A DNA stretch of 34,579 bases from Magnetococcales bacterium (GTDB lineage: Bacteria; Pseudomonadota; Magnetococcia; Magnetococcales; UBA8363): assembly GCA_015232645.1 (NCBI GenBank), contig JADFZF010000012.1:1-34579 (forward strand). Reading direction: 5' to 3'. The position numbers and the translations under genes were made by a program. Under the pieces are notes generated by a model. It did not search any database. It was not told the origin of the DNA and saw nothing but the letters and a program-made list of their open reading frames with translations. Shown here piece after piece: positions 7,307-26,411 of the stretch (positions are counted from its first letter, which is position 1; each line of letters begins with the position of its first letter).

Positions 7307-7325
7307 ATGGGATTCAGGTGGAGAG

Positions 7326-8879
7326 ATGAAGACTGGAAAATTGTGTTTGACAAAAAGCGATGATCAGCCTCAGAAAGGGCCATGCCTGCAGAATGATCTA
7401 AGTAAACTATGGAAAGTAATGATCATTGACGATGATCCAGATGTTCACCATGTCACCAGGATGGTCCTTGGCAAGTTTCAATTTGAAGGTATGGGATTAC
7501 AATTTATTGATGGATACTCCGGTTCCGATGCCAAACGCCTTCTTCAGGACCATCCGGACACGGCCATCATTCTGTTGGACGTGGTGATGGAAACGGAGGA
7601 TTCTGGGCTCAAAATTGTTCAATTTATTCGACAGGAGCTGAAAAATCGCCTGATACGCATTATTCTCCGTACCGGTCAACCGGGACAGGCGCCGGAATTC
7701 GAGGTCACGGAAAAATACGATATCAACGATTATCGGGAAAAAACCAGTCTGAGTTCGACCGTTCTGGCCACTTCGTTGTACTCTTCGCTGCGCGCCTATC
7801 GGGATATACGCGCCCTGGATAAGACTCGAATGGGTTTACAAAAAATCATCCATGCCACGGGTAATTTATTTGAATTGCGTTCGCTCAACGAATTGGCCAT
7901 GGGCATCCTAACTCAAATAGCGGTCCTGCTTAATATGGGGAATCATGTCAGTTGCAGCGAAATGGAATGTTTTGCTGCCACTGACGAACTGGGACAACTG
8001 ACCATCTATGCCGCTTTAGGGAAATATGAACCTTTTGTAGGAAAACCGGTTCTGCAGGTAGTGTCCAGTGAGATAGGGGAGCTCATCGGCAAGGCCCAAA
8101 AAGAAAATAAAAGTCAATATGCCGATCGCTGTTATATCGGGCAGTTCAAAACTAAAAATGGCATAAGGAATATTCTTCATTTTTTATATAGCGAACCACT
8201 CCTGCCGTCGGACCGGGAACTGATCGATCTTTTTTCGTTAAGCATCTCGGCATCGTTGGAAAATCTCTTATTGAATCAAGAGGTCATCGAAACACAAAAG
8301 GCTGTGACCTTCACCCTGGGTGAGGTCATCGAGGCCCGCTCCGGGGAAGCGGGTCATCATGTCCGCCGGGTCGCGGAAGGTTCACGTCTTTTGGCTGGTC
8401 TGCTTGGTCTGGATCAGCGTGCAGTGGATTTGATCTGGATGGCGTCGCCGCTGCATGACCTGGGTAAAATTGGGATTGCCGATGCCATCCTCAATAAACC
8501 TGGCCCCTTGGACCCGGAGGAGTGGGACAGGATTCAGCAACATCCTTCGATCGGCTGCAAGGTGCTTCAAGGTCAGGACAAAGAGGTCATCCACGCAGGT
8601 CGCATCATTTGTGCCCAGCATCACGAAAAATGGGACGGTTCCGGGTATCCGGATGGGCTGTCGGGGGAATCGATCCATATTTTTGCCCGCATCACGGCCA
8701 TCATCGATGTCTTTGATGCTCTTTATCATAAACGAACGTACAAGCAGGCTTGGCCACTGGACAAGATCGTGGCCCTGTTCCAGGATGAAAAAGGGAAACA
8801 CTTTGAACCTCGGTTGGTCGATGTCTTCCTCGACCATTTGCCGTTGTTTTTAAGGATTCAGAACGATTATCAGGGATGA
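7326..8879 (+). CDS. Response regulator: REC - DUF3369-like - HD-GYP phosphodiesterase domain
   Basis: REC (MIIDDDPDVHHVTRMVL...AIILLDVVME); central DUF3369-like region; HD-GYP signature (HDLGKIGIADAILNKPGPLDPEEWDRIQQHPSIG, HHEKWDGSGYPDGLSGE, IIDVFDALYHKRTYK). Confidence 0.92.
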   Translation: MKTGKLCLTKSDDQPQKGPCLQNDLSKLWKVMIIDDDPDVHHVTRMVLGKFQFEGMGLQFIDGYSGSDAKRLLQDHPDTAIILLDVVMETEDSGLKIVQFIRQELKNRLIRIILRTGQPGQAPEFEVTEKYDINDYREKTSLSSTVLATSLYSSLRAYRDIRALDKTRMGLQKIIHATGNLFELRSLNELAMGILTQIAVLLNMGNHVSCSEMECFAATDELGQLTIYAALGKYEPFVGKPVLQVVSSEIGELIGKAQKENKSQYADRCYIGQFKTKNGIRNILHFLYSEPLLPSDRELIDLFSLSISASLENLLLNQEVIETQKAVTFTLGEVIEARSGEAGHHVRRVAEGSRLLAGLLGLDQRAVDLIWMASPLHDLGKIGIADAILNKPGPLDPEEWDRIQQHPSIGCKVLQGQDKEVIHAGRIICAQHHEKWDGSGYPDGLSGESIHIFARITAIIDVFDALYHKRTYKQAWPLDKIVALFQDEKGKHFEPRLVDVFLDHLPLFLRIQNDYQG

Positions 8880-9234: not shown

Positions 9235-10557
9235 ATGGATTTTAGTCTGAAGCCCATCCCCGTCCTGCTTGTCGATGATCAGGAGATCACCGGCTATGTC
9301 CTGAACAAGATGATTTCGGAGGAATTCCAGGGTGATTTTGTCCTGCACTCCATCCATAACCCTCACGCAGCCTTGTCCAAGGCCCAGGAGACGGCACCCG
9401 CCGTCATACTGTTGGATCTGGTCATGCCCGAAATGGACGGCTTGACGCTCCTCCACCAATTTCGACGACATCCCGGTTTCATCGATACCCCCATCATCAT
9501 GCTTTCTTCACAGGAAGAATCGTTTTTCAAGGCCAAGGCCTTTGAGATGGGGGCCAACGATTACCTGGTCAAATTACCGGAAAAAATTGAGCTGATGGCC
9601 CGTCTGCGCTATTACGCCCAAGCCTATTACAATTTGTTGCAGATCCGGGAATCCCATCGAATCCTCAAGGAAAAGGAACTGCAATTCCGCATTGTCACCG
9701 AATCGATTCTGGAAGCCATCGTCGCTGCGGATCTGAATGGGACGATCCGTTTCTGGAACCAGGGGGCAGCGACACTCTTCGGCTACGGTCGGGACGCCAT
9801 CCTTGGTCAACAGGTGGACCGGCTGATCGCCCCCCGATTCAACGCCGAGTTCAAGCAATGTTTCACCGCATTGATGGCCAAGGGAACGTTGACACAGTGT
9901 GAAGTACGCGAATGGCTCGGGGTGCATCAGGATGGACGGGAATTTCCCATGGAAATTTCCATCAACTCCTGGACCGAAGAAGGCCAAACTCTCATTGCCA
10001 GCGTGATCCGCGATATTACCCAACGCAAGAAGGAAGAGGATCGCATTCGTTACCAGGCCAATTACGACCTGCTGACCGATCTTCCCAACCGTCATTATTT
10101 CATGCAACGCCTGGATGAAAGCATCTCCCTGGCCCACCGCCAGGGGGTTTCGTTTTCGTTGTTGTTCATTGATCTGGATCGGTTCAAATGGGTCAATGAT
10201 ACCCTGGGGCACGATGCGGGCGACCTGCTGCTGCAACAGGTGACGCAACGAATGAAACATTGTATCCGCACCACCGATACCTTGGGACGCCTCGGCGGCG
10301 ACGAGTTCACCGCCATCCTTTACGATATCAACCCATTCGGGACCAAGATCGTTGCCAGAAAAATATTGGATGAACTGTCCAAGCCTTTCATGCTTCAGGC
10401 GCGCCAAGTGCAGATTTCCGCCAGCATTGGCGTCACGTTGTATCCGGAAGATAACGAAAACAAGGAATCCCTGCTCAAGAATGCCGATGTTGCCATGTAC
10501 GTCGCCAAGACTGCCGGGAAGAACCGATATTGGTTCTTTAACCCCGTGGAAAATTGA
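9235..10557 (+). CDS. REC-PAS-GGDEF diguanylate cyclase
   Basis: REC (VLLVDDQEITG...VILLDLVMPEMDGL), PAS (ESILEAIVAADLNGTIRFWNQGAATLFGYG), GGDEF (DLLTDLPNRHYFMQRLD...RTTDTLGRLGGDEF); intact active site and RxxD I-site. Confidence 0.95.
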   Translation: MDFSLKPIPVLLVDDQEITGYVLNKMISEEFQGDFVLHSIHNPHAALSKAQETAPAVILLDLVMPEMDGLTLLHQFRRHPGFIDTPIIMLSSQEESFFKAKAFEMGANDYLVKLPEKIELMARLRYYAQAYYNLLQIRESHRILKEKELQFRIVTESILEAIVAADLNGTIRFWNQGAATLFGYGRDAILGQQVDRLIAPRFNAEFKQCFTALMAKGTLTQCEVREWLGVHQDGREFPMEISINSWTEEGQTLIASVIRDITQRKKEEDRIRYQANYDLLTDLPNRHYFMQRLDESISLAHRQGVSFSLLFIDLDRFKWVNDTLGHDAGDLLLQQVTQRMKHCIRTTDTLGRLGGDEFTAILYDINPFGTKIVARKILDELSKPFMLQARQVQISASIGVTLYPEDNENKESLLKNADVAMYVAKTAGKNRYWFFNPVEN

Positions 10558-10711: not shown

Positions 10712-12019
10712 ATGAAGCAAGGCCACCCAATGAGCCGTCGTTTTTTTCTCAAGTCATCCCTGGCCGCGGGGACTATTTTGCCGACGGTTCTGGGGATGCT
10801 GCCCCATCCGGTCGGCGGACGGGCCCTGGCACAGTCGGAAAAAGGAGTCGGCCAGGGCTGGCTGGAACTGGCGGCCCGACGGGGCGAGCCAACGGGGAAA
10901 TTTGGCAAAATTGGCGATCCGGTCACCCTGACGGTGGGATACCAACCGTATTGTACCCCCTATTGGACATCAACCGTCAACAAGCAGGCACAGCTCTGGG
11001 CGCAATATCTTCCCAAAGGGAGTCGGGTGCTGTGGTTTCGATCCCTTTCCGGACCACTCATTGGCAATAATATGAATGCCGGCAGCAATCAGTTCGGTTA
11101 TATGGCGGAGACTCCGGCGCTCCGGGCCGGGGATATTGTCGCTTGCGACATGGTTTCGGTGACCGGCTACGACTCGGGAGAAACCGGAGCCATCGTCGTG
11201 CGTCGGGATTTATGGGATGAAAAAAAAGTGGCAGCGCCGGTCGACCTGAAAGGAAAACCAGTCGGCACCCCCTTTGGTTCCTATTCCCATCGGCAGTGTC
11301 TCACCTGGATGGAGCAAAACAAAATCGACCTTGATCTGCTTGACCGCTCCATCGAACTGCAAATGAGTCAACTCAAACAGGGAACTCTCTGGGCCAGCGC
11401 CCTGTGGGAACCCTACCCGTCGTGGATGGAATATCGGCATTTGGTCAAGCGTTGGATTTCTGGATTGGAGATGCCCTGTACCTGCACCACGACCAACAAA
11501 GAGGCGACGCCACATACCTTTCGGGTGGTCGGGGCCACCTTGGCGGTCCAGGATTGGATACGTGAAAGACCCGATATTATCGCCGCGTATCTAAAATCGG
11601 AAGAGGAAAGCCGTGATCTGCTGACCCATGCTCCCGACCTGGCGGCCTATTACATCTGGAGCGATATTCCGGAAGTGCCGCCACCGGTGATTCGCTCCAG
11701 TCTGGACATGATGGTTTGGGATGGTCGGATCACCGCCGCCATCCGGACCCATTTACAGGGATGTGCGCGCCTGTGGCGTGCCCACGGTCAGCTGCAACAT
11801 GAACGTTCTCAAAATCCCGATGCGTATGTGGACGAATGGGCCAATGGTGGTTTTCTTGACTTGGCCATTGGGGAAATGCAACAAGAGCGACGTTGGACTT
11901 CCGCCACCCAACCCGGTTTTCCCAAACTTATGAATGATGGACAACGTCAGCGTCATGAGTGGTCACGCTATGCCGATATTCAGGTACGCCAGGTCCCCTG
12001 GTCGCCAACCAGGCTATAG
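10712..12019 (+). CDS. Tat-exported NitT/TauT-type ABC transporter substrate-binding protein
   Basis: Twin-arginine signal MSRRFFLKSSLAAGTILPTVLGM...ALAQ; SBP-like body (DPVTLTVGYQPYCTPYWTSTVNKQAQLWAQYLPKGSRVLWFRSLSGPLIGNNMNAG). Upstream GGGAGC near the 10712 ATG. Confidence 0.75.
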   Translation: MKQGHPMSRRFFLKSSLAAGTILPTVLGMLPHPVGGRALAQSEKGVGQGWLELAARRGEPTGKFGKIGDPVTLTVGYQPYCTPYWTSTVNKQAQLWAQYLPKGSRVLWFRSLSGPLIGNNMNAGSNQFGYMAETPALRAGDIVACDMVSVTGYDSGETGAIVVRRDLWDEKKVAAPVDLKGKPVGTPFGSYSHRQCLTWMEQNKIDLDLLDRSIELQMSQLKQGTLWASALWEPYPSWMEYRHLVKRWISGLEMPCTCTTTNKEATPHTFRVVGATLAVQDWIRERPDIIAAYLKSEEESRDLLTHAPDLAAYYIWSDIPEVPPPVIRSSLDMMVWDGRITAAIRTHLQGCARLWRAHGQLQHERSQNPDAYVDEWANGGFLDLAIGEMQQERRWTSATQPGFPKLMNDGQRQRHEWSRYADIQVRQVPWSPTRL

Positions 12020-12087: not shown

Positions 12088-14703
12088 GTGGATTTTAATT
12101 TTTCTTTACGTAATAAGCTGTTGCTGACTTCCCTGGCCATTGGGCTGTTGCCGGTATTCCTGATGGGGTTGATTACGACCTACCAGGGGGCCAGTACAGT
12201 TCGACAGAGCGAATTGGAACATTTGCAGAGTATTCGCGATCTGAAAAAAACACATATCGAAAAATTTTTTCTGGAGCGAAAGCGCGATCTGAATTCCCTG
12301 ATGGATGTGGCGCAACTGCTGGAATACGAAGCGGAGTCGCGTCTGCGCAACATCGTCGAAAGCAGGAAGCAGTATACGGAATTGTTTTTCAGGGAACGCC
12401 TGATCGATGCCAAGGTGTTTTCCCGCAGTGAATCGCTGACCCAGGCAGTTGACCAGTTTTCCGGGGCCTTCAAGGTGGAGGGTCAGCGGATCGGGGGAAT
12501 GGCGTGGAAGGCGGCATCAGACCGATTTGCGACCGAAATCGATCAATACCGTCAGGAACGCGGTTTTGATGATGTGCTGCTGTTGGACACCATGGGCAAC
12601 GTTGTCTACGCCGCCGCCCAGGGGAGTGACGCCGGAGGGAACATCCATCGCGATCCCCTGGACAAGACCTCCTTGAATACCGCTTTTACCCTGGGACTAA
12701 AAGGTGTTCACATCGAGGATTTTGCCCCCTATGCCCCGGTCCGCGGCGAGATGTCGGCGTTCATCACCGCGCCAGTGCAACGATTTGGCGAGGTCATCGG
12801 CGTACTGGCCTTGCGCCTTTCCGTGACCACCATCGATGCCATCGTTCAGAGCTTTGCCGGGATGGGGAAAAGTGGCCGGGTCGCTTTTCTCACCCCATCC
12901 GGCCCTCTGCCACGTTCTTCGTTTTATCCGGCGGCCGCGGTCGCCCTGACCACTGCGGGTGATCATGAAGGGGACGCCAAAGAGGGGTCACCCATCCGAT
13001 TCGTGGCCGAGGATGGCAGTGGCATTCTCCGTTTGGCCAGCGTGATGCCCGTCAACATACCGGGTCTGCAATGGCGTTTGGAGGCCGGCGTCCGCCTGGA
13101 TGAAGTGATTAACCCGGTGGGCGACAAGGCCTATGAAAGCTTTTTTTCCCGTTATGTGCAAAACCTGGGTTATGAAAATTTATACATGGTTCAACCAGGA
13201 GGTCGGGTATTTTTCGCCGCCCGTCCCAGCGATCTTCTCGGTGTCAACCTGTTGGAGGACCCCAGAAGCAAAAAGACCCATCTGGCTGGGATGTTGCGGA
13301 CGGTTTTGGAACAACATGGCGAGGGGATCAGCGATTTGATCCCTTTGGGATTGGCCGGTGACGCCCCATTCAGTTTCATCGCCCGTCCTTTGCTGGCCAA
13401 CGACAAGGTGGCGTTGGTGGTGGTGCTGCAAATGGCGGATACTTTCATCAACGACATTATGAAACAGCGCCATGGCTCGGAGGACAATGGTGAAACCTAT
13501 CTCGTCGGCCCCGACCATTTGCTGCGGTCCGATCCGGTTCTGGACCCGGAACATTTTTCGGTGCGCCAATCGTTTGCCAACCCGGATCGCAACCGGGTGG
13601 ATACCCCTGCCGTCCGCAGAGCGTTGGAACAGCAGTCGGGTTCCATGGAAAGCGTCAACTATCGTAACGATCCCGTATTCGTCTCCTTTGCTCCGGTACA
13701 GGCGGGTCAAGTGACCTGGGCCCTGGTGGCGGAACGAGATCGGGATGCCGTGTTGCGGCCAGTGAGGAAGTTACAATTTATTTTTTTGGCATCGGCGTTG
13801 GCGATCACGTTGCTTGTGGTCGTGGTCGGCTGGTGGAGTTCGCGGCGGATCACGCAGACGTTGACCTTGGTTTCCCAGGAGACGGTGAGGGCGGCGGGGG
13901 AAATCGCCGCGACCATTCTGCAACAGGAACGTATCTCTCGGGCCCAGGCGGATGCCATGACCGAAGTGGCGGCTGGAATGGAGAGGCTGTTTGAGACCGC
14001 ACGGCGCTCGGTGGAACAGGCGGATGCCGCCGTGGCGGAGAGTGGCAGTGTCCTGGAGTTGGCCAAAAGCGGAGAGGAACGGTTGTCGGCGCTCCAGGGG
14101 AGCATGGATACCAATGGACGCAGTGCCGAATCGGTGGCGCAACAGATCCGTTCCTTGAGCGACAAGTTTGTTCAGATCGATGAAATCAGCGCCATGATGA
14201 CCGACTTTGCGGTCGAAACCAAAATGTTGGCCATGAATGCCGCGGTTGAGGCGGTACGGGCGGGGGCCAAAGGCAAGGGATTCACGGTATTGGCGGAAGA
14301 AATACGTAAACTGGCCGAGGACAGCAAACGTTCCACCGATCGGATCAACAATTTGGTGTTGGAACTGCGTCAGGTGACCACCGGAACGGTCAAGGAATCC
14401 CACGAAGGGGCGAGGACCGCCCAGGAAGGTCTCGCTATGGCCCGTGAGACCATCGGCACCTTTGCCCAGGTGACTGCCTCGGCCGAGAACGCCGCCGCCA
14501 ACGCCGGACAAATTACCCTCAACCTGCGCAACGAAGAGGAAGAGATCAAACAACAGTTGCTCAACATCACCAGGATGAAAGAGGCGGCAGGCGAAAATGC
14601 ATCGGGGATTGCCCTGATCTCCGAAGGGGTAAGAAATTTCGACCGCATCGTCAGGGTGTTGGATGGTTTCATCCACGGCAGGCCTTCCGCAGGCAACCAG
14701 TGA
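12088..14703 (+). CDS. Methyl-accepting chemotaxis protein with large periplasmic Cache-type sensor region
   Basis: GTG start with GGAGCAG; TM1 LLLTSLAIGLLPVFLMGLIT; Cache-like segments (FFRERLIDAKVFSRSE, GETYLVGPDHLLRSD); TM2 FIFLASALAITLLVVVVGWW; MCP hairpin FAVETKMLAMNAAVEAVRAGAKGKGFTVLAEEIRKLAE. Confidence 0.93.
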   Translation: MDFNFSLRNKLLLTSLAIGLLPVFLMGLITTYQGASTVRQSELEHLQSIRDLKKTHIEKFFLERKRDLNSLMDVAQLLEYEAESRLRNIVESRKQYTELFFRERLIDAKVFSRSESLTQAVDQFSGAFKVEGQRIGGMAWKAASDRFATEIDQYRQERGFDDVLLLDTMGNVVYAAAQGSDAGGNIHRDPLDKTSLNTAFTLGLKGVHIEDFAPYAPVRGEMSAFITAPVQRFGEVIGVLALRLSVTTIDAIVQSFAGMGKSGRVAFLTPSGPLPRSSFYPAAAVALTTAGDHEGDAKEGSPIRFVAEDGSGILRLASVMPVNIPGLQWRLEAGVRLDEVINPVGDKAYESFFSRYVQNLGYENLYMVQPGGRVFFAARPSDLLGVNLLEDPRSKKTHLAGMLRTVLEQHGEGISDLIPLGLAGDAPFSFIARPLLANDKVALVVVLQMADTFINDIMKQRHGSEDNGETYLVGPDHLLRSDPVLDPEHFSVRQSFANPDRNRVDTPAVRRALEQQSGSMESVNYRNDPVFVSFAPVQAGQVTWALVAERDRDAVLRPVRKLQFIFLASALAITLLVVVVGWWSSRRITQTLTLVSQETVRAAGEIAATILQQERISRAQADAMTEVAAGMERLFETARRSVEQADAAVAESGSVLELAKSGEERLSALQGSMDTNGRSAESVAQQIRSLSDKFVQIDEISAMMTDFAVETKMLAMNAAVEAVRAGAKGKGFTVLAEEIRKLAEDSKRSTDRINNLVLELRQVTTGTVKESHEGARTAQEGLAMARETIGTFAQVTASAENAAANAGQITLNLRNEEEEIKQQLLNITRMKEAAGENASGIALISEGVRNFDRIVRVLDGFIHGRPSAGNQ

Positions 14704-16256
14704 ATGCCCCCGCGATGTCCGATAACGATGGTCGCTACGATCAAATGGGATCGAACGCTGGAAGGGATTGGTGGTTACGGTTCGAGTCCCTTCTGGAACA
14801 GAAAACCGGGCTATCCCTGGCCCATCCGCGGTCGTTGATTGCCGACCTGGTCGGTCAGCGGATGACGGCATGGAACCTGTCCGACCGCGACGCCTATCTG
14901 TCCCTGTTGTACGATATCGACAAAGGGCGGTGGGAATGGTCGGTGTTGCTGTCGGCACTACCGGTCCATGAGAGCTATTTTTTCCGCGATCCCGATCAAT
15001 TTTCTGTCATCCGGGAGCAACTGTTGCCGGAATTGTGGCGAGGGAAACGGGGGCAGGAGGGGGAACTGTCGATTTGGAGCGCCGGCTGTGCCAGCGGCGA
15101 AGAGGCCTATACCCTGGCCATGATATTGGAGGATTGGTCGGTCGCCACGACGACCGATCCGTGGCCTATCCGCATATTGGGAACCGATATGGACCCCAAT
15201 GGTATCCAGCAGGCCCGGGAGGGGCGTTATCGATCGTGGTCGTTTCGCAGCGTCGCGCCCGAGGTGTTGGCGACCTTTTTTCATGCCGAGGGGGATCAGT
15301 GGTACCGTATCGATTCGCGTCTGAGGAATCGGGTCCGGTTTGAGGAACTCAATCTTTTGGAAGCCGAGCACCATCTGGGTCAGGAACCACGGTTCGACCT
15401 GGTGCTGTGCCGCAATGTGTTCATCTACCTTTCTCCCCAGGCGGTGCGGCATATTTTGACGGCGATGCATGCCCTGTTGCGACCGGGAGGGTATCTGGTG
15501 ACCGGGCATGCGGAACTCGACCTGCAGCTCGTGGCCCGGCATGGTTATCGGACGCGGAATTTTCCCCACAGTCGGGTGTATCAAAAACCGCTGCCTGGTG
15601 AGGAACCGGTCGGGAGTTCACCCCTATCCCGGGGGGGATTCAAACCGGGAAGTCCCTGGTCGGTCCAGGCTCCGAATCCGCGTCCAAGTACCGATCATTC
15701 GCCAGGGATGTCATCAGGCAGGCCGGGTCTTGCGGTCAGCGGCGATGATGGTGCCGGTCCCGACATGGTGTGCGCACGGATGCGACGGCATATCGTGGCT
15801 GGACGTCATGCCGCGGCCCAGGCGGAAGGGGAAGCGGCCAGGCCGATCCATCCCAATGATGCCCCCATCCAGACCATGCTGGCCTGGGCCTTGGCCAATC
15901 TGGGCCGATCGGCCCTGGCGGAAGAATCGTGTCTGGAAGCGATTCGGATGGATCCCACCGCCTCGGAACCGCATCATCTGTTGGGCCAGATCTTGTCGGA
16001 AACCCAGAGGTTTGCCGAGGCGGAAGGGAGTTTTCGCATGGCGATTTATCTCGACCCCGGCGACATTTTGGCCATGATCGAGTTGGGCAATACCTTGGCC
16101 AGACTCGGACGGCGACAAGAAGCGCGACGGGAGTGGATGGTGGCAAGGAATCTGTTGGCGCGAGAACCTGACGATCGGCAGGTGGGCGTCTTTGAACACT
16201 GGTCGGTGGCATCATTGAAAATTGAACTGGAACGCCTGCTGCGCGAAGGTGGCTAA
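14700..16256 (+). CDS. cheR: CheR-type methyltransferase with C-terminal TPR (WspC-like)
   Basis: ESYFFRDPDQFSVIREQLLPEL, WSAGCASGEEAYTLAMIL, ILGTDMDPNGIQQAREGRY, FDLVLCRNVFIYLSPQAVRHIL; C-terminal TPR (SALAEESCLEAIRMDPTASEPHHLLGQILSETQRFAEAEGSFRMAIYLDPGD). GTGA overlap with upstream MCP. Confidence 0.93.
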   Translation: MNAPAMSDNDGRYDQMGSNAGRDWWLRFESLLEQKTGLSLAHPRSLIADLVGQRMTAWNLSDRDAYLSLLYDIDKGRWEWSVLLSALPVHESYFFRDPDQFSVIREQLLPELWRGKRGQEGELSIWSAGCASGEEAYTLAMILEDWSVATTTDPWPIRILGTDMDPNGIQQAREGRYRSWSFRSVAPEVLATFFHAEGDQWYRIDSRLRNRVRFEELNLLEAEHHLGQEPRFDLVLCRNVFIYLSPQAVRHILTAMHALLRPGGYLVTGHAELDLQLVARHGYRTRNFPHSRVYQKPLPGEEPVGSSPLSRGGFKPGSPWSVQAPNPRPSTDHSPGMSSGRPGLAVSGDDGAGPDMVCARMRRHIVAGRHAAAQAEGEAARPIHPNDAPIQTMLAWALANLGRSALAEESCLEAIRMDPTASEPHHLLGQILSETQRFAEAEGSFRMAIYLDPGDILAMIELGNTLARLGRRQEARREWMVARNLLAREPDDRQVGVFEHWSVASLKIELERLLREGG

Positions 16257-17330
16257 GTGAACGTATCCTCCTCATCAGCAGCCGCCTGGCCACATCTGGT
16301 CTTTCGGCTGAGTGACAAACTCTATGGGCTTGCAGCGGAGTCGGTCCGTGAGATCGTCCGTTTGCCGGAAATTTCACCTCTGGATGACCTGCCGCCTCAG
16401 GTAGCCGGTCTGGTCAACGTTCGCGGGCGGTTGGTGCCGGTCATCGATCTGGAGGCACGGATGCGGACCGCGGCGCGCTTATGGCATACTTCCGATTTTC
16501 TCATCATCGCCATACTTCACGATGACGTTGATATCGCCATGATTGCCAATCACATCGTTGGCATCCACGACCTGCAGCCGCGGCAGTCCGGAGAGCTGGA
16601 TGCCCTGTTGGGAGATGGGGAAGGGGGGGCACACCATGGATTTTTGGCCGGGGTCGCCCATATCGAAAACCAAATGGTGGCGTTGTTGGATTGTCACCAT
16701 CTTTTATTGCCCCGGGAACAAAAAGCACTCGGCGAGTGGGGGCGGGCGGATGAAGAAAGAGGTGACCCAGGGGCAGGGCGATCACTCTCTCCGCGCCGTT
16801 TCAGCCCCGGGTCGACCGATCGGGAACATAGCATCTTTCGCGAACGCGCCCGTCGGTTGATGAATCCGTTGCGCGGTACCGATGCGATCGTTGCCCAGGC
16901 CTTTGTCATCATCGAATTGCACCAGACCCGGTTGGCGTTCACCATGGAGGCGGTCCGGGGTTTTGTCAGCGTCATGCGGATGACCCCGATTCCGTGTTGC
17001 CCGGAGCATGTGGCGGGGATGATGAGTCGCCGGGGCGAGATGTTGACGTTGGTGAACGTGTCCATGATGTTGTCCCTTCCCAACGTTGCGAGGCCGATGG
17101 AAAAAGCGGTATTGGTGGAAATTCAGGAGGACGAGGTCTTGGGGCTCCTGGTCCACCAAGTGGTCGAAGTGGTCTATCAGGATGTCGATACCCTGTTTGT
17201 TCCCGTGGCGCCGGAAGATGGTCCGGCTCATAAGCTCGGCTCCCTGCGTTGGCGGGGGCAGTTGCTGGCGGTCATCGATCCCGCCAAACTGCTGCGTTCA
17301 CCGGAATTGGTGGTCGACCAGGCACCTTGA
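16257..17330 (+). CDS. Tandem CheW-CheW adaptor fusion
   Basis: Two CheW-like units: LVFRLSDKLYGLAAESVREIVRLPEISPLDDLPPQVAGLVNVRGRLVPVIDLEAR, and AFVIIELHQTRLAFTMEAVRGFVSVMRMTPIPCCPEHVAGMMSRRGEMLTLVNVSMML. Confidence 0.9.
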   Translation: MNVSSSSAAAWPHLVFRLSDKLYGLAAESVREIVRLPEISPLDDLPPQVAGLVNVRGRLVPVIDLEARMRTAARLWHTSDFLIIAILHDDVDIAMIANHIVGIHDLQPRQSGELDALLGDGEGGAHHGFLAGVAHIENQMVALLDCHHLLLPREQKALGEWGRADEERGDPGAGRSLSPRRFSPGSTDREHSIFRERARRLMNPLRGTDAIVAQAFVIIELHQTRLAFTMEAVRGFVSVMRMTPIPCCPEHVAGMMSRRGEMLTLVNVSMMLSLPNVARPMEKAVLVEIQEDEVLGLLVHQVVEVVYQDVDTLFVPVAPEDGPAHKLGSLRWRGQLLAVIDPAKLLRSPELVVDQAP

Positions 17331-17364
17331 TATTGAATTAATGGGAAATTTTGGAGTGGTCACC

Positions 17365-19521
17365 ATGAAAGTCAAATTCAAACTTTCAAGAATAATAACA
17401 CAGGGACTTATTTTTGCAGGATTACTGCCTGCCATTGGAATCAGCCTGTTTGCCTATGTGACCTTGACCCCGGTGCTCAAACAAACGGCGGTCCATCAGC
17501 TTTCCGCCGTCCATTATGGCAATACCCGGGAGTTGGAGCGCTACTTTGCCATCATGACCAGTCAGGCGCTCCCCATGATCGAGAACCCTTTGATCGTACA
17601 GGCCTTGGTTGACTTCACTCAGGGGGCGGCCGCCATCGAGTCGGAACTGGGTTCCGAATTCGATCGCGAGAAGGAGTCGCACCTGAATCAATTGCGGGCG
17701 CGGTATTTGGAATTGGCCGGTCGGATGCGTCTGACCGCCCCGGAGGAAGCGTTGAGTCTGTGGTGGCCCCGGAGCCGCGTCGGGCTATTGCTGCAATCCC
17801 GGTATATTGGCGACAATCCCTACCCGTATGGCACCAAGGCCAAACTGGACGGCCATTCCGGCGACGGCCTCTATGGAGCGGCGCACGTCCGCCATCACCC
17901 TCTGTTACGCAACTGTCTTAAACGCTCGGTGTTTTATGATTTGCTCCTGATCGAGCCCAAAGAGTTTCGCATCGTCTATTCGATACAAAAGGATTTGGAT
18001 TTTGGGCTCAACCTGAGGACGGGTCCCCACAGTGGGAGTCGGTTGGCCGCCACCGTCGCCCAGGCCATGAACCAAACCATGCCTGGAAGCCTGTTCCTGT
18101 CTGATTTTGAACTGTATCCCCCGTCTCCCAATCGTCCCAGCGGCTTTGTCGTTCTGCCGGTGTTCGATGATGGACAAAAGCTTGGGGCACTGGCGCTGCA
18201 ATTCGCCGCCACTGCCATCGAAACGGTGACCAACAACGGCGGCCTCTGGCAGGAGATCGGCCTGGGAACGACGGGGGAAAGTTTCCTCACGGGGCCGGAT
18301 AAAATCTTTCGCAGCAACGTTCGCCCCATGCTGGAGGATCCAAAAAGTTTTATCGCGACCCTCCGACATAACGGCGTTGATGAAATCATCCTGACCCGGA
18401 TGGAACAGAATCGCAGCGTCAGCTCGTTTCTCCCCTGGACCGCTCTGCCCGACGACGAGGTGACCCGGGGGATTCGGCATGGTCCGGAAGAACTGACCGA
18501 TTATATGGGGCGCCAGGTGTTGGCCAGCCATTCCCCGATCACCCTTCCCGGAGGGCAGCAATGGACCCTGTTCACGACGATTTCCTTGGGGGATGCCTAC
18601 CGTACCCTGTACTTCATGCAATGGGGAACAGCGGTCATCGTCCTGATGTCCATCTTGGTCATCGGCTATCTTGGTCGGTGGATTCGTGATAGAATCATGA
18701 TACGGCTGCAAGGGCTGTCCCAAACCATATCGATGTTTCTTGAACAACTGCGCAACCTGGTGACGCAACAGGAATCGACCGCCAGTCAGCAGGCCTCTTC
18801 GGTCAACGAGACCAATGCCACTTTGGCGGAATTGGACAGTTCGGCGCGCAAAACCGCGGAACATGCGACCAAAACCACCTCTTTGGCGGAAAATTCACGC
18901 GACCTGGTGAGCTCCGGCATCGGCCAATTGGAATCACTGCGCCAAGGGATGAGCGACACCAAGGAAAAGGTGACCCAGATTGCCAACCATATTCTGGAGT
19001 TGAGCGAACAGACCGACCAGATCCGTGATATTTCGCGTCTGGTATCGGACTTTGCGAATGAGACCAAAATGTTGGCCATGAACGCCGCCGTCGAGGCGGT
19101 TCGGGCGGGCGAACATGGAAAGGGATTTTCGGTTTTGGCACTGGAAACCCGCAAGCTGGCCGATGAATCCAAGTGGTCGACCAAACGTATCAACGCCCTG
19201 GTGGGGGAAATTCAGAAGGCGACCAATGCCACGGTGATGATTACCGATGAGGGGAGCAAAACCATGACCAGGGGTGTGGAGATGACCGAAAAATCGGTTC
19301 TGGTCCTCCATGAGATCGCCGAGGCCATGGAAACCGGTCTGGAACGCATTCAACAGATCTCCCTCAATGCCAAGCAACAATCTCTGGCCATCAGTCAGGT
19401 GGTGGGAGCCATGAATGCCATCAATGCCGGAGCGCGGGACAATGAAACCGGTTTGGCCCAGGTCGTGGCGGGGATACGCTCTTTGGATGACGCTGCGAAT
19501 AACTTGAAGGATTTTCTATGA
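17365..19521 (+). CDS. Methyl-accepting chemotaxis protein with periplasmic Cache-type sensor
   Basis: Start trimmed from ORF 17086; ATG 17365 has GGAG upstream (17341 is an alternative). TM1 IITQGLIFAGLLPAIGISLFAYV, GESFLTGPDKIFRSN, TM2 TAVIVLMSILVIGYLGRWI, MCP tip FANETKMLAMNAAVEAVRAGEHGKGFSVLALETRKLADES. Confidence 0.92.
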   Translation: MKVKFKLSRIITQGLIFAGLLPAIGISLFAYVTLTPVLKQTAVHQLSAVHYGNTRELERYFAIMTSQALPMIENPLIVQALVDFTQGAAAIESELGSEFDREKESHLNQLRARYLELAGRMRLTAPEEALSLWWPRSRVGLLLQSRYIGDNPYPYGTKAKLDGHSGDGLYGAAHVRHHPLLRNCLKRSVFYDLLLIEPKEFRIVYSIQKDLDFGLNLRTGPHSGSRLAATVAQAMNQTMPGSLFLSDFELYPPSPNRPSGFVVLPVFDDGQKLGALALQFAATAIETVTNNGGLWQEIGLGTTGESFLTGPDKIFRSNVRPMLEDPKSFIATLRHNGVDEIILTRMEQNRSVSSFLPWTALPDDEVTRGIRHGPEELTDYMGRQVLASHSPITLPGGQQWTLFTTISLGDAYRTLYFMQWGTAVIVLMSILVIGYLGRWIRDRIMIRLQGLSQTISMFLEQLRNLVTQQESTASQQASSVNETNATLAELDSSARKTAEHATKTTSLAENSRDLVSSGIGQLESLRQGMSDTKEKVTQIANHILELSEQTDQIRDISRLVSDFANETKMLAMNAAVEAVRAGEHGKGFSVLALETRKLADESKWSTKRINALVGEIQKATNATVMITDEGSKTMTRGVEMTEKSVLVLHEIAEAMETGLERIQQISLNAKQQSLAISQVVGAMNAINAGARDNETGLAQVVAGIRSLDDAANNLKDFL

Positions 19522-19567
19522 CCTGTTGTAACTACCCGGCCCTTTGGGATCAAAAATAGCGACTGCC

Positions 19568-21874
19568 ATGATCAAGGACCGGGAGCTGCGCAATCTGTTT
19601 CGATCCGAGAGCACCGAGCGTCTGGAACGGCTCGGGACGGGATTGCTGCGGCTGGAACAATCTCCCGGAGATACCGAGGCGATGCAGGGGCTCATGCGTG
19701 ATGCCCATAGCCTCAAGGGAGCGGCACGCATGCTGGGCGAGAGCGAGGTCGAAAAACTGGTGCATTGTTTTGAAGAGGCGTTGCGTCCTTGCTTTGAAGG
19801 CCGCCTCGCCATGAATCGTGAACTGTCGGATCGGTTCAACCGCGGTCTTTCCGATATCGAAACGTTGATCAACGACTCCATCGCGGGGGAAAAGAGCAGC
19901 GTATCGGTTTTCGAAGCCATGAACCGGCTGCGTGGTTTGACGACCCCAATGGCGGCAGCGGTCCGATCGGAACCGGGGCCACCCGCGACCGTGCAGCCCC
20001 AGGTGATCGTCGCCCTCCAACCTGCTGTCCGGGAACAGCCCCCCGTGAACCCGGCAGGTGCGGTGGAAACCGCTCCCAAGGGATTGCCGCCGCCGGTCCA
20101 GCGGGAGATCAGCGGTCCGAAGGAGGATTCGCCCCGCCCGGCATCGAACGACAAGGCCGTCACCACCGAGCCCATCCAAACCATGCGGGTCAGTGCCGAC
20201 AAACTGGATCGGCTGCTCAGCATGGTCGGAGAGCTGCTTGTGGTTCGCAACCGGATTCAGCGCCGTTTTGAAGACGTCAACGAATTGATTGCCCAGTGGG
20301 GGATGGTACAACGACTGGGATGGGCCCAAAGACGGCACTTGCCTGACCTCTCCGATCCCCTGGAGGGGGTGGATCGGGGACTGGAAAACCTGCGGCGGGA
20401 ATTGTTCGAGGACAATTCCATGTTGGAGTTGGTGGTCGGGGAACTGGAGGAGGGGATTTGGAATTTACGCCTCATGTCGCTGTTCGACCTGTTCCGTGGC
20501 TTTTCACGCATGGTACGGGAAATTTCCCGGCAACAGGGCAAGGAGGTCCAATTGCTGCAGGAGGGGGTGGAAACCACTGTTGACAAACATATCGTGGAAG
20601 CCTTGAAGGATCCATTGATGCATCTGGTTCGCAATGCGGTGGACCATGGGCTGGAAACACCCAGGGAACGATTGCTGGCGGGCAAACCGCCTCAGGGCAC
20701 CCTCTGGCTCCGGGGCCGAAGTTTTACCGACCGGGTGGAAATCGAAGTGGCCGATGATGGCAAAGGATTGAATTCCGATGTGATTTATGATCGGGCCAAA
20801 GCGGAGGGATTGTTGCTGCCCGAGGATTCCCAGGAGTTGTCCGATCATCGACTTCTGGACATTCTATGTACTTCAGGTTTTACCACGAGCCGCTACATCA
20901 CCGATCTTTCAGGGCGGGGGGTCGGAATGAATGTGGTTCGGGAGCAGGTGGAACAGCTCAATGGTCAATTGCGCCTGATCCATCAACCCGGCCGTGGATG
21001 CCGTTTCATCCTTTCCATTCCCAACGCCCTTTCTTCGACCCCCGTGTTCGTCATTGCCCTGGGGAATCAACGGTATGTCATTGCCATGGAACATGTCCAA
21101 GGGGTACGTCGGGTTAGCCCGGATGACATTTTCCGTCTCGATGGCCACGATACCATCGACCTGGAAGAAAGACCCATTGCCGTCGCCAGCTTGGAGCGGC
21201 TGCTGGGTTTATCCGACTCCCAGCTGCAACGTCAGGAATCGCGGCATCGCCCCTGCCTCATCCTGACTGCGGGTGGAGAGCGTCTGGGGTTGTTGGTGGA
21301 TGATCTGCTGGATCAGCAAAAACTCGTACTGAAGCCTTATGTCTCCCTGTTGCGCCGGGTACCCAATGTATCGGGTAGTACCATTCTTGGTACCGGTGAG
21401 GTATGCATGGTCCTGTCGGTGGAGGACCTCCTGGTCACGGCGCGGCGGAAGCGGCTGGCCACGCCTGATCACTCTCACGAAGATTCAACCGGCGGCATGG
21501 CGGAAACCCGGCAGCGGGTGGTCTTGTTGGTGGAGGATTCCATTACCACCCGCGTCCAGGAAAAACGTATCATCGAAGGGGCGGGCTATCAGGTCATTAC
21601 CGCGGTCAATGGCGTGGAGGCTTTCGAAAAACTGGGACGATTTCGCGTTGATGCCGTGGTCAGCGATGTCGAGATGCCGGAAATGGATGGCCTGGCGTTG
21701 ACGGAAAAAATTCGTGCCTCGGGGACGTTGCAGACCATTCCCGTCATTTTGGTCACCTCCCGTGCCTCGGCTCGGGACCAGCAGCGCGGCCTCATCGCCG
21801 GAGCCAATGCCTACCTGACCAAGAGTGGTTTCCAGCAGGATCAACTGATTCAAACTCTGCGGAGGTTGACATGA
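19568..21874 (+). CDS. cheA: Hybrid chemotaxis kinase CheA-REC (WspE-like)
   Basis: Hpt LMRDAHSLKGAARMLGESEVEKLVH; HATPase HLVRNAVDHGLETPRERLLAGKP, LSGRGVGMNVVREQVEQLNG; CheW-like P5; C-terminal REC VVLLVEDSITTRVQEKRI...AVVSDVEMPEMDG. ATG 19568 preferred over TTG 19544. Confidence 0.95.
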   Translation: MIKDRELRNLFRSESTERLERLGTGLLRLEQSPGDTEAMQGLMRDAHSLKGAARMLGESEVEKLVHCFEEALRPCFEGRLAMNRELSDRFNRGLSDIETLINDSIAGEKSSVSVFEAMNRLRGLTTPMAAAVRSEPGPPATVQPQVIVALQPAVREQPPVNPAGAVETAPKGLPPPVQREISGPKEDSPRPASNDKAVTTEPIQTMRVSADKLDRLLSMVGELLVVRNRIQRRFEDVNELIAQWGMVQRLGWAQRRHLPDLSDPLEGVDRGLENLRRELFEDNSMLELVVGELEEGIWNLRLMSLFDLFRGFSRMVREISRQQGKEVQLLQEGVETTVDKHIVEALKDPLMHLVRNAVDHGLETPRERLLAGKPPQGTLWLRGRSFTDRVEIEVADDGKGLNSDVIYDRAKAEGLLLPEDSQELSDHRLLDILCTSGFTTSRYITDLSGRGVGMNVVREQVEQLNGQLRLIHQPGRGCRFILSIPNALSSTPVFVIALGNQRYVIAMEHVQGVRRVSPDDIFRLDGHDTIDLEERPIAVASLERLLGLSDSQLQRQESRHRPCLILTAGGERLGLLVDDLLDQQKLVLKPYVSLLRRVPNVSGSTILGTGEVCMVLSVEDLLVTARRKRLATPDHSHEDSTGGMAETRQRVVLLVEDSITTRVQEKRIIEGAGYQVITAVNGVEAFEKLGRFRVDAVVSDVEMPEMDGLALTEKIRASGTLQTIPVILVTSRASARDQQRGLIAGANAYLTKSGFQQDQLIQTLRRLT

Positions 21875-22929
21875 TCCGGGTGGTTTTGGTGGACGATTCC
21901 CCCGTGGCCTTGAAAATTTTGCAGGATATCGTCGAAGCGGATGGCGACATTGTCGTGGCTGGTTCCGCCGCCGATGGTCTTATCGGTTGGCAAAAGATAC
22001 GGGAGATCCGACCCGATGTGGTTTGTACTGATTACCACATGCCCAATATGAACGGTCTGGCCTTGGTGCAGGCCGTCATGTCGCAACATCCCCTGCCCAT
22101 CCTGGTGATCAGCGTTTCAGTGGCAGAGGAAGCCGATAACGAATTGGTCATGTCGGTGTTGCAGGCGGGCGCTCTGGACATACTGGCCAAGCCACCGGGA
22201 GGGCCCAGCTCGCGCAACGAACGTTGGGGACGACAATTACGGCAAAAGATTCGCGTGCTTTCCGGCTCGCAGCCCATGAAATTGATCCAATATTCCCCCT
22301 ATACCGGTCTCAAGATGGAGGAACCGCCTGGGAAAAAGTCTCCATCCGGTGGTGTCATCGTCATCGGAGCTTCCACCGGCGGTCCCCAGGCCCTGACCCG
22401 GATACTCAAAGCCTTGCCCGAAGATTTTTCCTGTCCGGTGGTGGTGGTACAACACATCGGCGCCTCTTTCCTGCCTGGCCTGGTGACCTGGCTCGGCAAG
22501 GGGATCGCCTTGCCGGTGATCCACGCCCGGGCGGGTGATCGCCTTCGCCCCGGGACGATCTATTTTCCTCCCGCCACCGCCAATCTTTCGGTCACCGAGG
22601 CGGGTCAGTTTTTCTTTCATCCTCATGATCCCGGTCAGGATGGGGTGAACCTGTTTTCCATCGACCTGACCTGCACCTCCTTGGCCCACTGCTTCCAGGC
22701 TTCGGTATTGGGAATCCTCCTGACCGGCATGGGCAGCGATGGTGCCCGGGGCCTGTTGGAAATTCGTCGGCGCGGGGGGGCGACCATCGCTCAGGATGAA
22801 GCCTCCTCGGTCATTTTCGGCATGCCGCGGCAGGCGATCGAACTGGGTGCCGCCAGGGCGGTCCTGCCCCTGAATGACATGGCGGGCGCCATGCTTTCCT
22901 GGTGCCGCACCGGGAGGATCCCATGTTGA
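21871..22929 (+). CDS. cheB: CheB methylesterase response regulator (WspF-like)
   Basis: REC (VVLVDDSPVALKILQDIV...VVCTDYHMPNMNGL); methylesterase motifs VIVIGASTGGPQAL, VVVQHIGASFLPG, GILLTGMGSDGARGL. ATGA overlap with CheA. Confidence 0.95.
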   Translation: MIRVVLVDDSPVALKILQDIVEADGDIVVAGSAADGLIGWQKIREIRPDVVCTDYHMPNMNGLALVQAVMSQHPLPILVISVSVAEEADNELVMSVLQAGALDILAKPPGGPSSRNERWGRQLRQKIRVLSGSQPMKLIQYSPYTGLKMEEPPGKKSPSGGVIVIGASTGGPQALTRILKALPEDFSCPVVVVQHIGASFLPGLVTWLGKGIALPVIHARAGDRLRPGTIYFPPATANLSVTEAGQFFFHPHDPGQDGVNLFSIDLTCTSLAHCFQASVLGILLTGMGSDGARGLLEIRRRGGATIAQDEASSVIFGMPRQAIELGAARAVLPLNDMAGAMLSWCRTGRIPC

Positions 22930-24167
22930 ACATTCTCTTGGCCGACGACAGTCCGGTTTTTGCCAAACTCTTGAAACGACGTCTGGAGCATGATCAACGT
23001 TACCACCTGGTCCATGTGATCGACGAGCGAGAATTGCAACAAACCCTTGCCGATGACTATGATTTTCTTCTGGCGTTGGTTGAATTTTCCTTGCCCGAAT
23101 TCCGTCATGGCCAGGGGTTGCAACGGCTGGTCAACAGCCGGATCCCGATCATTGCCCTGGTCTCCATGTTTCATGGCAGCCGGGGATTTTCCCCGTTGGC
23201 CGACTATGAAATCGTCGACTATGTGACCAAGAAATCGATGAATTTGGATCAGATTATCGACATGATCGAGCGTATGGAAAAAAATACGGACCATCCCATT
23301 CTGGTCGTCGATGCCTTGTCCGCGCATCGCCGTCTGATTGCCAGACCATTGCAGTTATACCGTTTTCCCGTCTTTGAAACTCAAAACATGCAGGAAGCCA
23401 TGCAGGTGCTGTCCGAGCATCCGGAAATTCGTCTGGTGGTCACTGATGATTCGTTGCCGGATGCCGACGGTCTGCAACTGCTCGATTGGATACGCCACAC
23501 TCTGAAGCGTTCTCGGGATGATCTGCTGGTTATTGCCCTGTCCGGCCAAAGGGAGCAGGCTGCGGCACGTTATTTCAAGGAGGGAGCCAACGATTGGCTC
23601 GCCAAACCGTTTCAGCGCGAGGAATTGATTTATCGTGTGCATCAAAATATCGAGCGCTATGAAAATGATTGCGCCATGGAGGCCCTGGCCAGCCAGGATG
23701 CGGTGACCCGGTTGGCCAACGTCCGCCATTTCCACGATGTGGGAGTGACGCTGTACAGCAATGCCGCCCGCGACAATTTGGCCATTACCCTGGCCGTTCT
23801 CGCCCCCGACGGGCTGGATTCGTTGGTGGACAATTATGGCGATTATGCCAGGGTATTGACTCTGAGAAGCATCGGCGATCTTTTGAGCGGCGCTTTCCGC
23901 AAAACCGATATTGCCGCCAGGCTCGAGGATGATGCCTTTGGTATATTGATCGCCAACCCGCAACCCGACAACACCGGACTGGTGTTTTCTCGCTTGAAGC
24001 GGCGTATTGAAGCGATGCGGATTCCTTATGAAGATGATTTCATCCAGGTCAAGGTCAGTATCGGCATCACCTCGAGGCTGGTGGGTTCCCTGGACGACAT
24101 GATGGCCCATGCCCGGGCCAATCTCGCATTGGCCCGGCAGGAGGGGAAAGGTATTCACCTGGGGTAA
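22923..24167 (+). CDS. REC(D-to-E)-REC-degenerate GGDEF protein in the WspR position
   Basis: REC1 MLNILLADDSPVFAKLLKRRLE...LALVEFSLP (Glu at phospho-acceptor); REC2 ILVVDALSAHRRLI...VVTDDSLPDADGLQLL...; GGDEF-like domain with RKTDIAARLEDDAFGILI. ATG 22923 follows GGGAGG and overlaps the cheB stop. Confidence 0.88.
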   Translation: MLNILLADDSPVFAKLLKRRLEHDQRYHLVHVIDERELQQTLADDYDFLLALVEFSLPEFRHGQGLQRLVNSRIPIIALVSMFHGSRGFSPLADYEIVDYVTKKSMNLDQIIDMIERMEKNTDHPILVVDALSAHRRLIARPLQLYRFPVFETQNMQEAMQVLSEHPEIRLVVTDDSLPDADGLQLLDWIRHTLKRSRDDLLVIALSGQREQAAARYFKEGANDWLAKPFQREELIYRVHQNIERYENDCAMEALASQDAVTRLANVRHFHDVGVTLYSNAARDNLAITLAVLAPDGLDSLVDNYGDYARVLTLRSIGDLLSGAFRKTDIAARLEDDAFGILIANPQPDNTGLVFSRLKRRIEAMRIPYEDDFIQVKVSIGITSRLVGSLDDMMAHARANLALARQEGKGIHLG

Positions 24168-24308: not shown

Positions 24309-24878
24309 TTAATCATCTCTGCCACCCCCCCCCGCGGAAGAGGGGGGCCGAACGGTGACGTTCAAGGTCGTGAATTCATATTCATTGTCGGTGTACTTTT
24401 CCAGGGCCAGCCGCTCCAGGGCATCCCATAATTGGCACAGGAAGGTCCCTGCCCGCCGGTGAATTCCCTGGTTTTCACTCTCCCTCGGGCCGGCGATATT
24501 GATGATTTGGATGCGATGCTGTTGAATCCAACGAATGACTTCGTCGATGGGATGAGGCTGGCTCAAATCGACTTCCATGCAGGGGATTCCCAATTTCCGG
24601 GCATGGCGCGAGGTCAGCGCGCTGCCCCCCCGTAACTGGTTTTGATACAACACCAGCGTACCATCCGCATCCTGGACATTGAGAAAGGTGCGATAGCGAT
24701 AGTCGAGATGAATGGTTTCTTCCAACGGATAACGCCTGGGAATCACCCCATCTTCGGAGCGGCGTCCCTTGGGGCACCACCCCCCTACGGCGATTTCCCG
24801 GTCCATGCCGAAGTCCAGGGCCGCCCGGTCGACCCCGGTTTGGCCTCCGGATATGATTTTCTTGATCATGACCATCAT
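24309..24878 (-). CDS. Putative molybdenum carrier protein (MoCo carrier-like, Rossmann-type)
   Basis: KKIISGGQTGVDRAALDFGMDREIAVGGWCPKGRRSEDGVIPRRYPLEET...NVQDADGTLVLY...INIAGPRESENQGIH: characteristic of the family. Confidence 0.85.
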   Translation of the reverse strand: MMVMIKKIISGGQTGVDRAALDFGMDREIAVGGWCPKGRRSEDGVIPRRYPLEETIHLDYRYRTFLNVQDADGTLVLYQNQLRGGSALTSRHARKLGIPCMEVDLSQPHPIDEVIRWIQQHRIQIINIAGPRESENQGIHRRAGTFLCQLWDALERLALEKYTDNEYEFTTLNVTVRPPSSAGGGGRDD

Positions 24879-25033
24879 CCACCATCATATATCATTCTTA
24901 AGATCATCGGCACAAGACAATCATTTTTCTGATAATTAATCAACCAAAAAAATCATCCATGGATTGGACAATCCGCATTGGGGTAACATGCGGCATCGCT
25001 TTGAACGTTGAAACCCCGAGGAGCTTGACACCC

Positions 25034-25936
25034 ATGGCCAGATTGTCTGACGAAGAACTCATCGCCGAACTCAAAAAACGATTCGATGCCACCAAACAAG
25101 CCCTCTACGACGTGAAAATGGTGACCAGCAAACTGGAGGAGGTCAACAAGAAGCTCCAGGCTTCGGAGCAGATCAAGAGCAACTTTATTTCCCACATGAA
25201 GAATGAAATCAATAACCCGCTTACATCAATTCTTGGACTGTCCGAGCAACTCAAATCGGGTGAAATGCCGCCCGAGTTGATTCAAACCATCGCCACCTCC
25301 ATCCATTCCGAAGCCTTCAGTCTGGATTTCCAACTGCGTAACATTTTCGCTGCCGCCGAAATGGAGTCGGGGGAGTCGGAACTGCAAATTTCCCGCACCG
25401 ATGTCCTGACCTTGATCAGGGATGCCATGGACTCATTCAAGCATCTGATTTCCGATAAGAATCTAAAGGTCAAGTTTCCCGAGAAAAAATCCGACGAACC
25501 ACCTCTCCTCTTCAAGACCGACACTGAAAAATTAAGTCTGATCCTGAGCAATCTCATTTCCAATGCCGTGGAGTTCAACGTCGATAACGGCAAAATAGAG
25601 ATCAAGGCCTCCGTGGTCGACGGCCGTTTGAATGTGACCGTACGTGATACCGGGCCCGGCATCGACCCGGAAGAAATTCACGTCATTTTCGACCGTTTCG
25701 TACAGTTGGAGTCGGGTGCGCGTAAAAGCCATAAAGGACACGGACTTGGCCTGAGCATCGTTCAGGCCCTGGTGGAAATGATGGAAGGAAACGTGACCGT
25801 GGATTCGGTCGCCAAAGGCAAGGGTACCATTTTCTCCATATCGATCCCTGAAGTGCAAACCGACACGGATGCCGATGCCTTTTCAGTGGATGGCAACGAA
25901 TTCTTCTTCGATGACGAAGAGGTCAAGGCTTTCTAG
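25034..25936 (+). CDS. Soluble histidine-kinase-like protein with Asn at the phospho-acceptor His position
   Basis: Start trimmed from 24959 (GAGGAG before ATG 25034). Coiled coil, H-box-like FISHMKNEINNPLTSILGLSEQL, N-box LILSNLISNAVEFN, G-boxes VRDTGPGI and GHGLGLSIVQ. Confidence 0.85.
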   Translation: MARLSDEELIAELKKRFDATKQALYDVKMVTSKLEEVNKKLQASEQIKSNFISHMKNEINNPLTSILGLSEQLKSGEMPPELIQTIATSIHSEAFSLDFQLRNIFAAAEMESGESELQISRTDVLTLIRDAMDSFKHLISDKNLKVKFPEKKSDEPPLLFKTDTEKLSLILSNLISNAVEFNVDNGKIEIKASVVDGRLNVTVRDTGPGIDPEEIHVIFDRFVQLESGARKSHKGHGLGLSIVQALVEMMEGNVTVDSVAKGKGTIFSISIPEVQTDTDADAFSVDGNEFFFDDEEVKAF

Positions 25937-25937
25937 C

Positions 25938-26411
25938 ATGGCAAGCAACGATAAAGATAACAAACCCTTCCTCCTGCCCGGGACGCTTTTTGCCAAGAAT
26001 GGTGACTACATTATTACCACCGTGCTTGGCTCATGTATTGCTGTGTGTCTGTGGGACAAAACGCTCAAGAGAGGGGGGATGAATCATTACAAACTCCCCC
26101 TTTGGAACGGGGACGGGCTGGCCTCACCCAAATTCGGTAACATCGCCATTGAAAAATTGATTGAAAACCTTTTGGGAATGGGCTGTGCGCAACGTAACAT
26201 CATCGCCAAGGTCTTCGGCGGTGCCGCCGTGATCCAAAGCTCCAGTGGATTGCTCAATGTGGGGGAACGTAATATCGAGGTGGCCCGGGACTATCTGGCC
26301 CAGGCCCGGATCCCCATTCTTGCCTCCGATGTCGGCGGTACCCAAAGTCGAAAGGTGATCTTCAATACCGTCGATGGCAGCATCCTGATGAAAAAAGCGG
26401 CTCCGCAATAA
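25938..26411 (+). CDS. cheD: CheD chemoreceptor glutamine deamidase
   Basis: Start trimmed to ATG 25938. VLGSCIAVCLWDKTLKRGGMNHYKLPL, NIIAKVFGGAAV, VGERNIEVARDYL, IPILASDVGGTQSRKVIFNTVDG: CheD signature with Cys and His. Confidence 0.93.
   Translation: MASNDKDNKPFLLPGTLFAKNGDYIITTVLGSCIAVCLWDKTLKRGGMNHYKLPLWNGDGLASPKFGNIAIEKLIENLLGMGCAQRNIIAKVFGGAAVIQSSSGLLNVGERNIEVARDYLAQARIPILASDVGGTQSRKVIFNTVDGSILMKKAAPQ

Follow-up and report, generated by a model that had tools for sequence, protein, structure and literature searches.

A degenerate GGDEF pseudo-response regulator as candidate c-di-GMP reader in a Wsp-like chemosensory cluster of Magnetococcales

Introduction

What can a GGDEF protein whose active site (A-site) is dead and whose inhibitory site (I-site) is complete do in a chemosensory gene cluster? 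We studied this question for P0001, a protein encoded on a stretch of DNA of 34,579 nucleotides (the window) from contig C33 of a Magnetococcales MAG (3.4 Mb, 74% complete). The initial annotation saw in P0001 a candidate c-di-GMP reader. On balance we consider it probable that P0001 is a dead GGDEF pseudo-response regulator that would bind c-di-GMP at its I-site and act as local reader for a Wsp-like pathway; the sequence evidence presented below, a dead A-site beside a complete I-site under selection, supports this candidate role.

Results

Gene content and order of the cluster

By gene content the cluster is of the Wsp type, with MCP, CheR-TPR, CheW, CheA-REC, CheB and a WspR-like cyclase. 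The genes are:

9235..10557, + strand: WspR-like REC-PAS-GGDEF diguanylate cyclase, intact (RTTD, GGDEF); first gene of the conserved cluster
10712..12019, + strand: Tat-signal-like solute-binding protein, weakly SsuA/nitrate-binding-like; found with this cluster only
12088..14703, + strand: MCP with dCache-like sensor
14700..16256, + strand: CheR-TPR (WspC-like)
16257..17330, + strand: double CheW
17086..19521 (listed ORF), + strand: second MCP; true start downstream, at about 17300, as orthologues match from residue 94
19544..21874, + strand: CheA-REC (WspE-like)
21871..22929, + strand: CheB (WspF-like); its end overlaps the start of P0001
22923..24167, + strand: P0001, REC1-REC2-degenerate GGDEF pseudo-response regulator, 414 aa; orthologues in G004, G005 and G001

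The P0001 orthologues come from the Magnetococcales MAGs JADGCQ01, PEAK01 and JADGCN01. The gene order as listed, from REC-PAS-GGDEF to P0001, is kept in all four species; in G001 the cluster is spread over two contigs and we infer its continuity there.

The REC-PAS-GGDEF protein (9235-10557) shares 73-77% identity with its orthologues, its GGDEF, metal and RTTD motifs are intact and its best PDB match is WspR, receiver included. Since this intact WspR-like cyclase heads the cluster in 4/4 species, c-di-GMP is made, and probably also read, by the pathway. The initial annotation had proposed that the usual output had become a receptor, with c-di-GMP integrated instead of produced. The cyclase gene contradicts this proposal and we rejected the idea that a reader has replaced the cyclase; as production is kept, P0001 is an extra component. 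WspR combines one canonical receiver with an active GGDEF domain as output of the Wsp CheA, a description that P0001 does not fit and that suits the 9235-10557 protein better. Judging by its residues, P0001 is best described as a pseudo-response regulator rather than as a replacement of WspR.

The solute-binding protein (10712-12019) has no Pfam match and only weak similarity to sulfonate/nitrate-binding proteins; it may present ligand to the MCPs. Just upstream of the cyclase, at 4931-8879, we found a PAS-GAF histidine kinase and a REC-DUF3369-HD protein. Because the HD-GYP motif of the latter looks intact (HHEKWDGSGYP), a c-di-GMP-degrading enzyme may adjoin the putative writer and reader. 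In G005 (L063) the kinase and HD-GYP genes are absent upstream of the cluster, and the contigs of the other two species end too early there. Also in G005, the gap between the second MCP and CheA-REC is ~2 kb (L032:6573-8611) compared to a short gap in the window. Downstream of P0001 the window holds cpYpsA (minus strand), a small histidine kinase and cheD (24309-26411). In G004 a PD-(D/E)XK transposase-family gene (L031:4914-6005) lies directly 3' of the P0001 orthologue, and beyond it come the genes of a large hybrid kinase and of a REC-SpoIIE phosphatase; the downstream flank of G004 is therefore unlike that of the window.

Distribution and descent

In the genomes searched, P0001 occurs in four of the eight sampled species of one genus and in no other genus. 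Both P0001 and the solute-binding protein are present in 4/48 genomes of the order, all from this genus, and the genus members without the two proteins include MAGs that are 95-99% complete. No further P0001 orthologue was found in the 48 genomes of the order or in 399 genomes of the phylum. A contig search with the P0001 sequence alone matched no orthologue; with the P0001 alignment it returned the same three orthologue MAGs only. In the tree the dead-GGDEF proteins form one branch (100/100), and their nearest relatives are active Magnetococcales REC-REC-GGDEF cyclases. Those nearest active relatives that we checked lie outside any such chemosensory cluster.

Domain layout and degenerate receivers

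P0001 is divided as follows:

22923..23288, + strand: REC1 (residues 1-122); Glu54 replaces the phospho-acceptor Asp in 4/4 orthologues
23289..23663, + strand: REC2 (residues 123-247); D175 and K228 retained; of the acidic pair one Asp of two (D130) is left in P0001 and none in the three orthologues
23664..24164, + strand: degenerate GGDEF domain (residues 248-414)

The Pfam matches of P0001 comprise two REC stretches (83.3 bits) and the GGDEF domain. For the latter the initial annotation had suggested a profile alignment: residues 256-409 match PF00990 with 62.6 bits (cut-off 23.8, E 5e-17), and because of this score we regard the domain as real. Its AlphaFold2 model, computed from an alignment of 60 sequences, has a mean pLDDT of 94.4. 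The top PDB matches of the model are GGDEF domains, down to E 6e-16, and several of them are crystals with c-di-GMP (3ign, 6ttr). Sequence and fold thus place the entire domain among the GGDEF domains. In the full-length model of P0001 (4 sequences) the GGDEF part is poor.

Both receivers are degenerate, a point that the initial annotation had missed. A phosphorylatable response regulator has an acidic pair, the phospho-Asp, a Ser/Thr and a Lys, and P0001 does not present this set. Because REC1 carries Glu54 in 4/4 orthologues and the acidic pair of REC2 is degraded, P0001 is unlikely to serve as a normal phospho-acceptor.

Loss of the catalytic site

Two features mark the former active site:

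23925..23939, + strand: dead A-site EDDAF, residues 335-339; DDETF in the three orthologues
23802..23804, + strand: A294 replacing the metal-binding Asp; A in 4/4 orthologues, D in 18/18 active relatives

As reference we used 18 homologous REC-REC-GGDEF proteins with GGEEF. Across the GGDEF domain, 20 columns that are conserved in at least 80% of these active relatives are lost in 4/4 P0001 orthologues. Among them are the metal Asp (A294), F298, K299, N302, H307, G310, D311, G335, G336, E338, D398, K405 and R409. Measured against an active diguanylate cyclase (GG(D/E)EF, metal Asp, guanine and phosphate contacts) all four orthologues fall short: the metal Asp, the guanine-binding Asn/Asp, both Gly of the A-site, the catalytic Glu and the phosphate-binding Lys/Arg are gone in each of them. 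The active relatives keep the catalytic and substrate residues in 18/18 cases, save one exception at R409. Furthermore 14 of the 20 lost columns now vary among the P0001 orthologues, like unconstrained sites. Because 20 conserved columns are lost in 4/4 and 14 of these have become variable, cyclase activity or GTP binding by P0001 appears very unlikely.

Some degenerate A-sites are active, for example AGDEF in VCA0965 (PMC3974145). This precedent would speak for residual nucleotide handling by P0001, either as a cyclase remnant or through an allosteric GTP site of the kind seen in some GGDEF-EAL enzymes; given the residue classes lost in 4/4 orthologues, we find it hardly credible. An allosteric GTP domain was rejected, as the guanine and phosphate contacts are lost.

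Retention of the I-site

The residues of the I-site are:

23769..23771, + strand: R283, second half of the I-site; aligned with WspR position 198
23991..23993, + strand: R357, invariant in 4/4
23898..23909, + strand: I-site R326-K-T-D329, invariant in 4/4

The EDDAF A-site and the RKTD I-site are exactly as the initial annotation had described them, in their bases, their residues and the gap of five residues between D329 and E335, which is the canonical RxxD/A-site spacing. It had also proposed a check of the I-site across orthologues, and R326 and D329 proved invariant in 4/4, so that the RxxD of an I-site receptor stands five residues before the A-site in every orthologue. The remaining I-site charges, R283 and R357, are likewise invariant in 4/4. 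Position 198 of WspR, with which R283 aligns, is one that we take to complete the WspR I-site. R357 lies 22 residues past the first A-site residue, the same offset as the secondary-site Arg794 of SgmT (PMC3509222). Secondary arginines at both places (WspR position 198, SgmT R794) are thus found in all four orthologues.

Presence of the RxxD motif has to be judged against its base rate. Among the GGDEF domains of the source genome (31 domains, one genome) RxxD is near universal; its presence alone is therefore inherited and carries little weight, and the argument rests on co-retention tests instead. For the 18 active relatives we compared R283 with RxxD: both are present in 9, both are missing in 8 and the two disagree in 1 (9/1/0/8; Fisher p 4e-4, a value inflated by the relatedness of the sequences). 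This association is the strongest of any GGDEF-domain column. Secondly, we considered the 21 charged columns common to the three nearest active relatives, of which the dead clade keeps 4/4 in the I-site compared to 4/17 elsewhere (Fisher p 0.012; a small test and only moderately significant). The I-site charges were retained along a stem branch with 1.55 changes per column. D329 is conserved too in most relatives that lack the RxxD Arg, and its conservation may be structural. What we take as informative is that RxxD was kept together with R283 and R357 despite the catalytic loss, and that these residues are invariant in 4/4.

The length of this stem branch and the many lost motifs could also mean that P0001 is a pseudogene decaying at the operon's end. 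However, the reading frame is intact in 4/4 species and dN/dS is ~0.1-0.16 in every P0001 domain (0.09-0.16 for the GGDEF part), the same as for CheA and CheB. We rejected decay on the basis of dN/dS and regard it as the least credible reading of the locus.

A further alternative is an adaptor without ligand, a scaffold or decoy that docks CheA/CheB via its pseudo-receivers, with RxxD as inherited remnant or structural element. Glu54 in REC1 and the lost acidic pocket of REC2 show a repurposing of the whole of P0001, RxxD is near universal in the GGDEF domains of the genome and the dead clade keeps ~45% of the columns common to its nearest active relatives anyway. Against this, all four orthologues keep the surface arginines R283, R326 and R357 but have lost most of the other conserved charges, and R283 and RxxD act as a unit in the relatives. 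We therefore hold the adaptor to be unlikely, though worth keeping in mind.

The I-site could also serve a partner. GGDEF pairs bridged at their I-sites are a known mode of inhibition (PleD/WspR), and both P0001 and REC-PAS-GGDEF carry a full RxxD within one conserved cluster. Here c-di-GMP would cross-link the dead GGDEF domain to that of the operon cyclase and tune its product inhibition. Homodimers or other binding targets are equally possible, and this variant seems quite improbable to us.

Other GGDEF domains of the same genome deserve mention. L180 (G000:C104:4882-5166) is degenerate as well, with an AHGQF A-site, an RQMD I-site and the metal Asp lost, and is a second candidate reader. 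L181 and L182 (G000:C110, C421) lie on separate contigs; both are partial GGDEF domains of closely similar sequence, with the motifs HIGGDDF and RGRD.

Discussion

A candidate c-di-GMP reader

We consider a c-di-GMP-reading role of P0001 likely because of the catalytic loss, the invariant I-site charges, the purifying selection and the joint retention or loss of R283 and RxxD; this support comes from four orthologues of one genus. The reading step is based on the retained residues together with the precedents SgmT (PMC3509222), CdgA (PMC3271064) and PopA (PMC8865702).

In the reader model, ligand signals received by the solute-binding protein and the MCPs would reach CheA-REC, which would phosphorylate the REC-PAS-GGDEF cyclase and thereby raise c-di-GMP; the chemosensory kinase most plausibly drives this WspR-like cyclase. 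P0001 would bind c-di-GMP and then dimerise or shift its conformation via the I-site. Its pseudo-receivers would in turn act on CheA/CheB, or on some target downstream, and close a feedback loop. From gene order alone, P0001 most plausibly feeds back on the pathway or on a local target. Taken to its full extent this would be an array equipped to receive its own messenger: the cluster cyclase makes c-di-GMP, a phosphorylation-proof double pseudo-receiver senses it via the I-site and acts back on CheA/CheB, and c-di-GMP replaces phosphorylation as input. As a whole this picture is possible, though we offer it tentatively and with some doubt.

If binding is true, the cluster contains a compact, co-inherited writer/reader pair and c-di-GMP feedback on a chemosensory pathway becomes directly testable. 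P0001 would also exemplify clearly how a second-messenger input can replace the phospho-input of a response regulator. Our search of the open-access literature found no published case in which a degenerate I-site GGDEF protein and an active WspR-like cyclase are fixed together in one chemosensory operon. Degenerate GGDEF receptors are already known; the pairing with an operon-mate WspR-like cyclase and the degenerate receivers are added twists.

Comparison with known systems

The Wsp system shares with the P0001 cluster the MCP, CheR-TPR, CheW, CheA-REC, CheB and a GGDEF response regulator. P0001 directly follows cheB, as wspR follows wspF in what we take to be the wsp order. In contrast to Wsp, the active WspR-like cyclase (REC-PAS-GGDEF) is the first gene and P0001 is an extra dead protein; two MCPs, the solute-binding protein and the double CheW are further differences. 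Chemosensory cluster 2 of Halomonas titanicae also encodes a multi-receiver GGDEF protein, and clusters of this type were reported in Magnetococcales too (PMC5907407). Unlike P0001, the Halomonas protein has the layout Hpt-REC-REC-GGDEF, and its phospho-sites, A-site and I-site are all intact.

Of the known receptors to which the initial annotation had likened P0001, PopA is the right comparison, together with SgmT and CdgA, whereas PelD is a loose one, being unrelated to GGDEF domains according to PMC3509222. PopA of Caulobacter crescentus has two receivers and a GGDEF domain with a dead A-site and an intact I-site, and is a c-di-GMP receptor (PMC3509222, PMC8865702). PopA serves in CtrA degradation as a protease adaptor; the P0001 gene instead belongs to a chemosensory cluster that has a cyclase of its own, and the P0001 receivers are degenerate, unlike those of PopA. 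The dead clade groups with active Magnetococcales cyclases in a tree that took in no PopA, and as far as this tree shows P0001 would be a separate case of a PopA-like solution.

SgmT and ActA of Myxococcus xanthus resemble P0001 in their dead A-site, their RxxD and a secondary-site Arg at the same offset, and SgmT binds c-di-GMP through the RxxD Arg (PMC3509222). Unlike P0001, SgmT is a hybrid histidine kinase and ActA a regulator with one receiver, and neither is presented there as member of a chemosensory cluster. CdgA (Bd3125) of Bdellovibrio is a degenerate GGDEF protein with RxxD that binds c-di-GMP and produces none (PMC3271064); it acts at the predatory pole and no chemosensory gene cluster is described for it in that paper, unlike P0001. 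Finally, the Cle proteins and ShkA of Caulobacter are chemotaxis-type or pseudo-receiver readers of c-di-GMP (PMC5677366, PMC7010744) and in this respect resemble the role proposed for P0001. By these accounts the Cle proteins are CheY-like and have no GGDEF I-site, and ShkA binds c-di-GMP via a pseudo-receiver domain, not via a GGDEF I-site as proposed for P0001.
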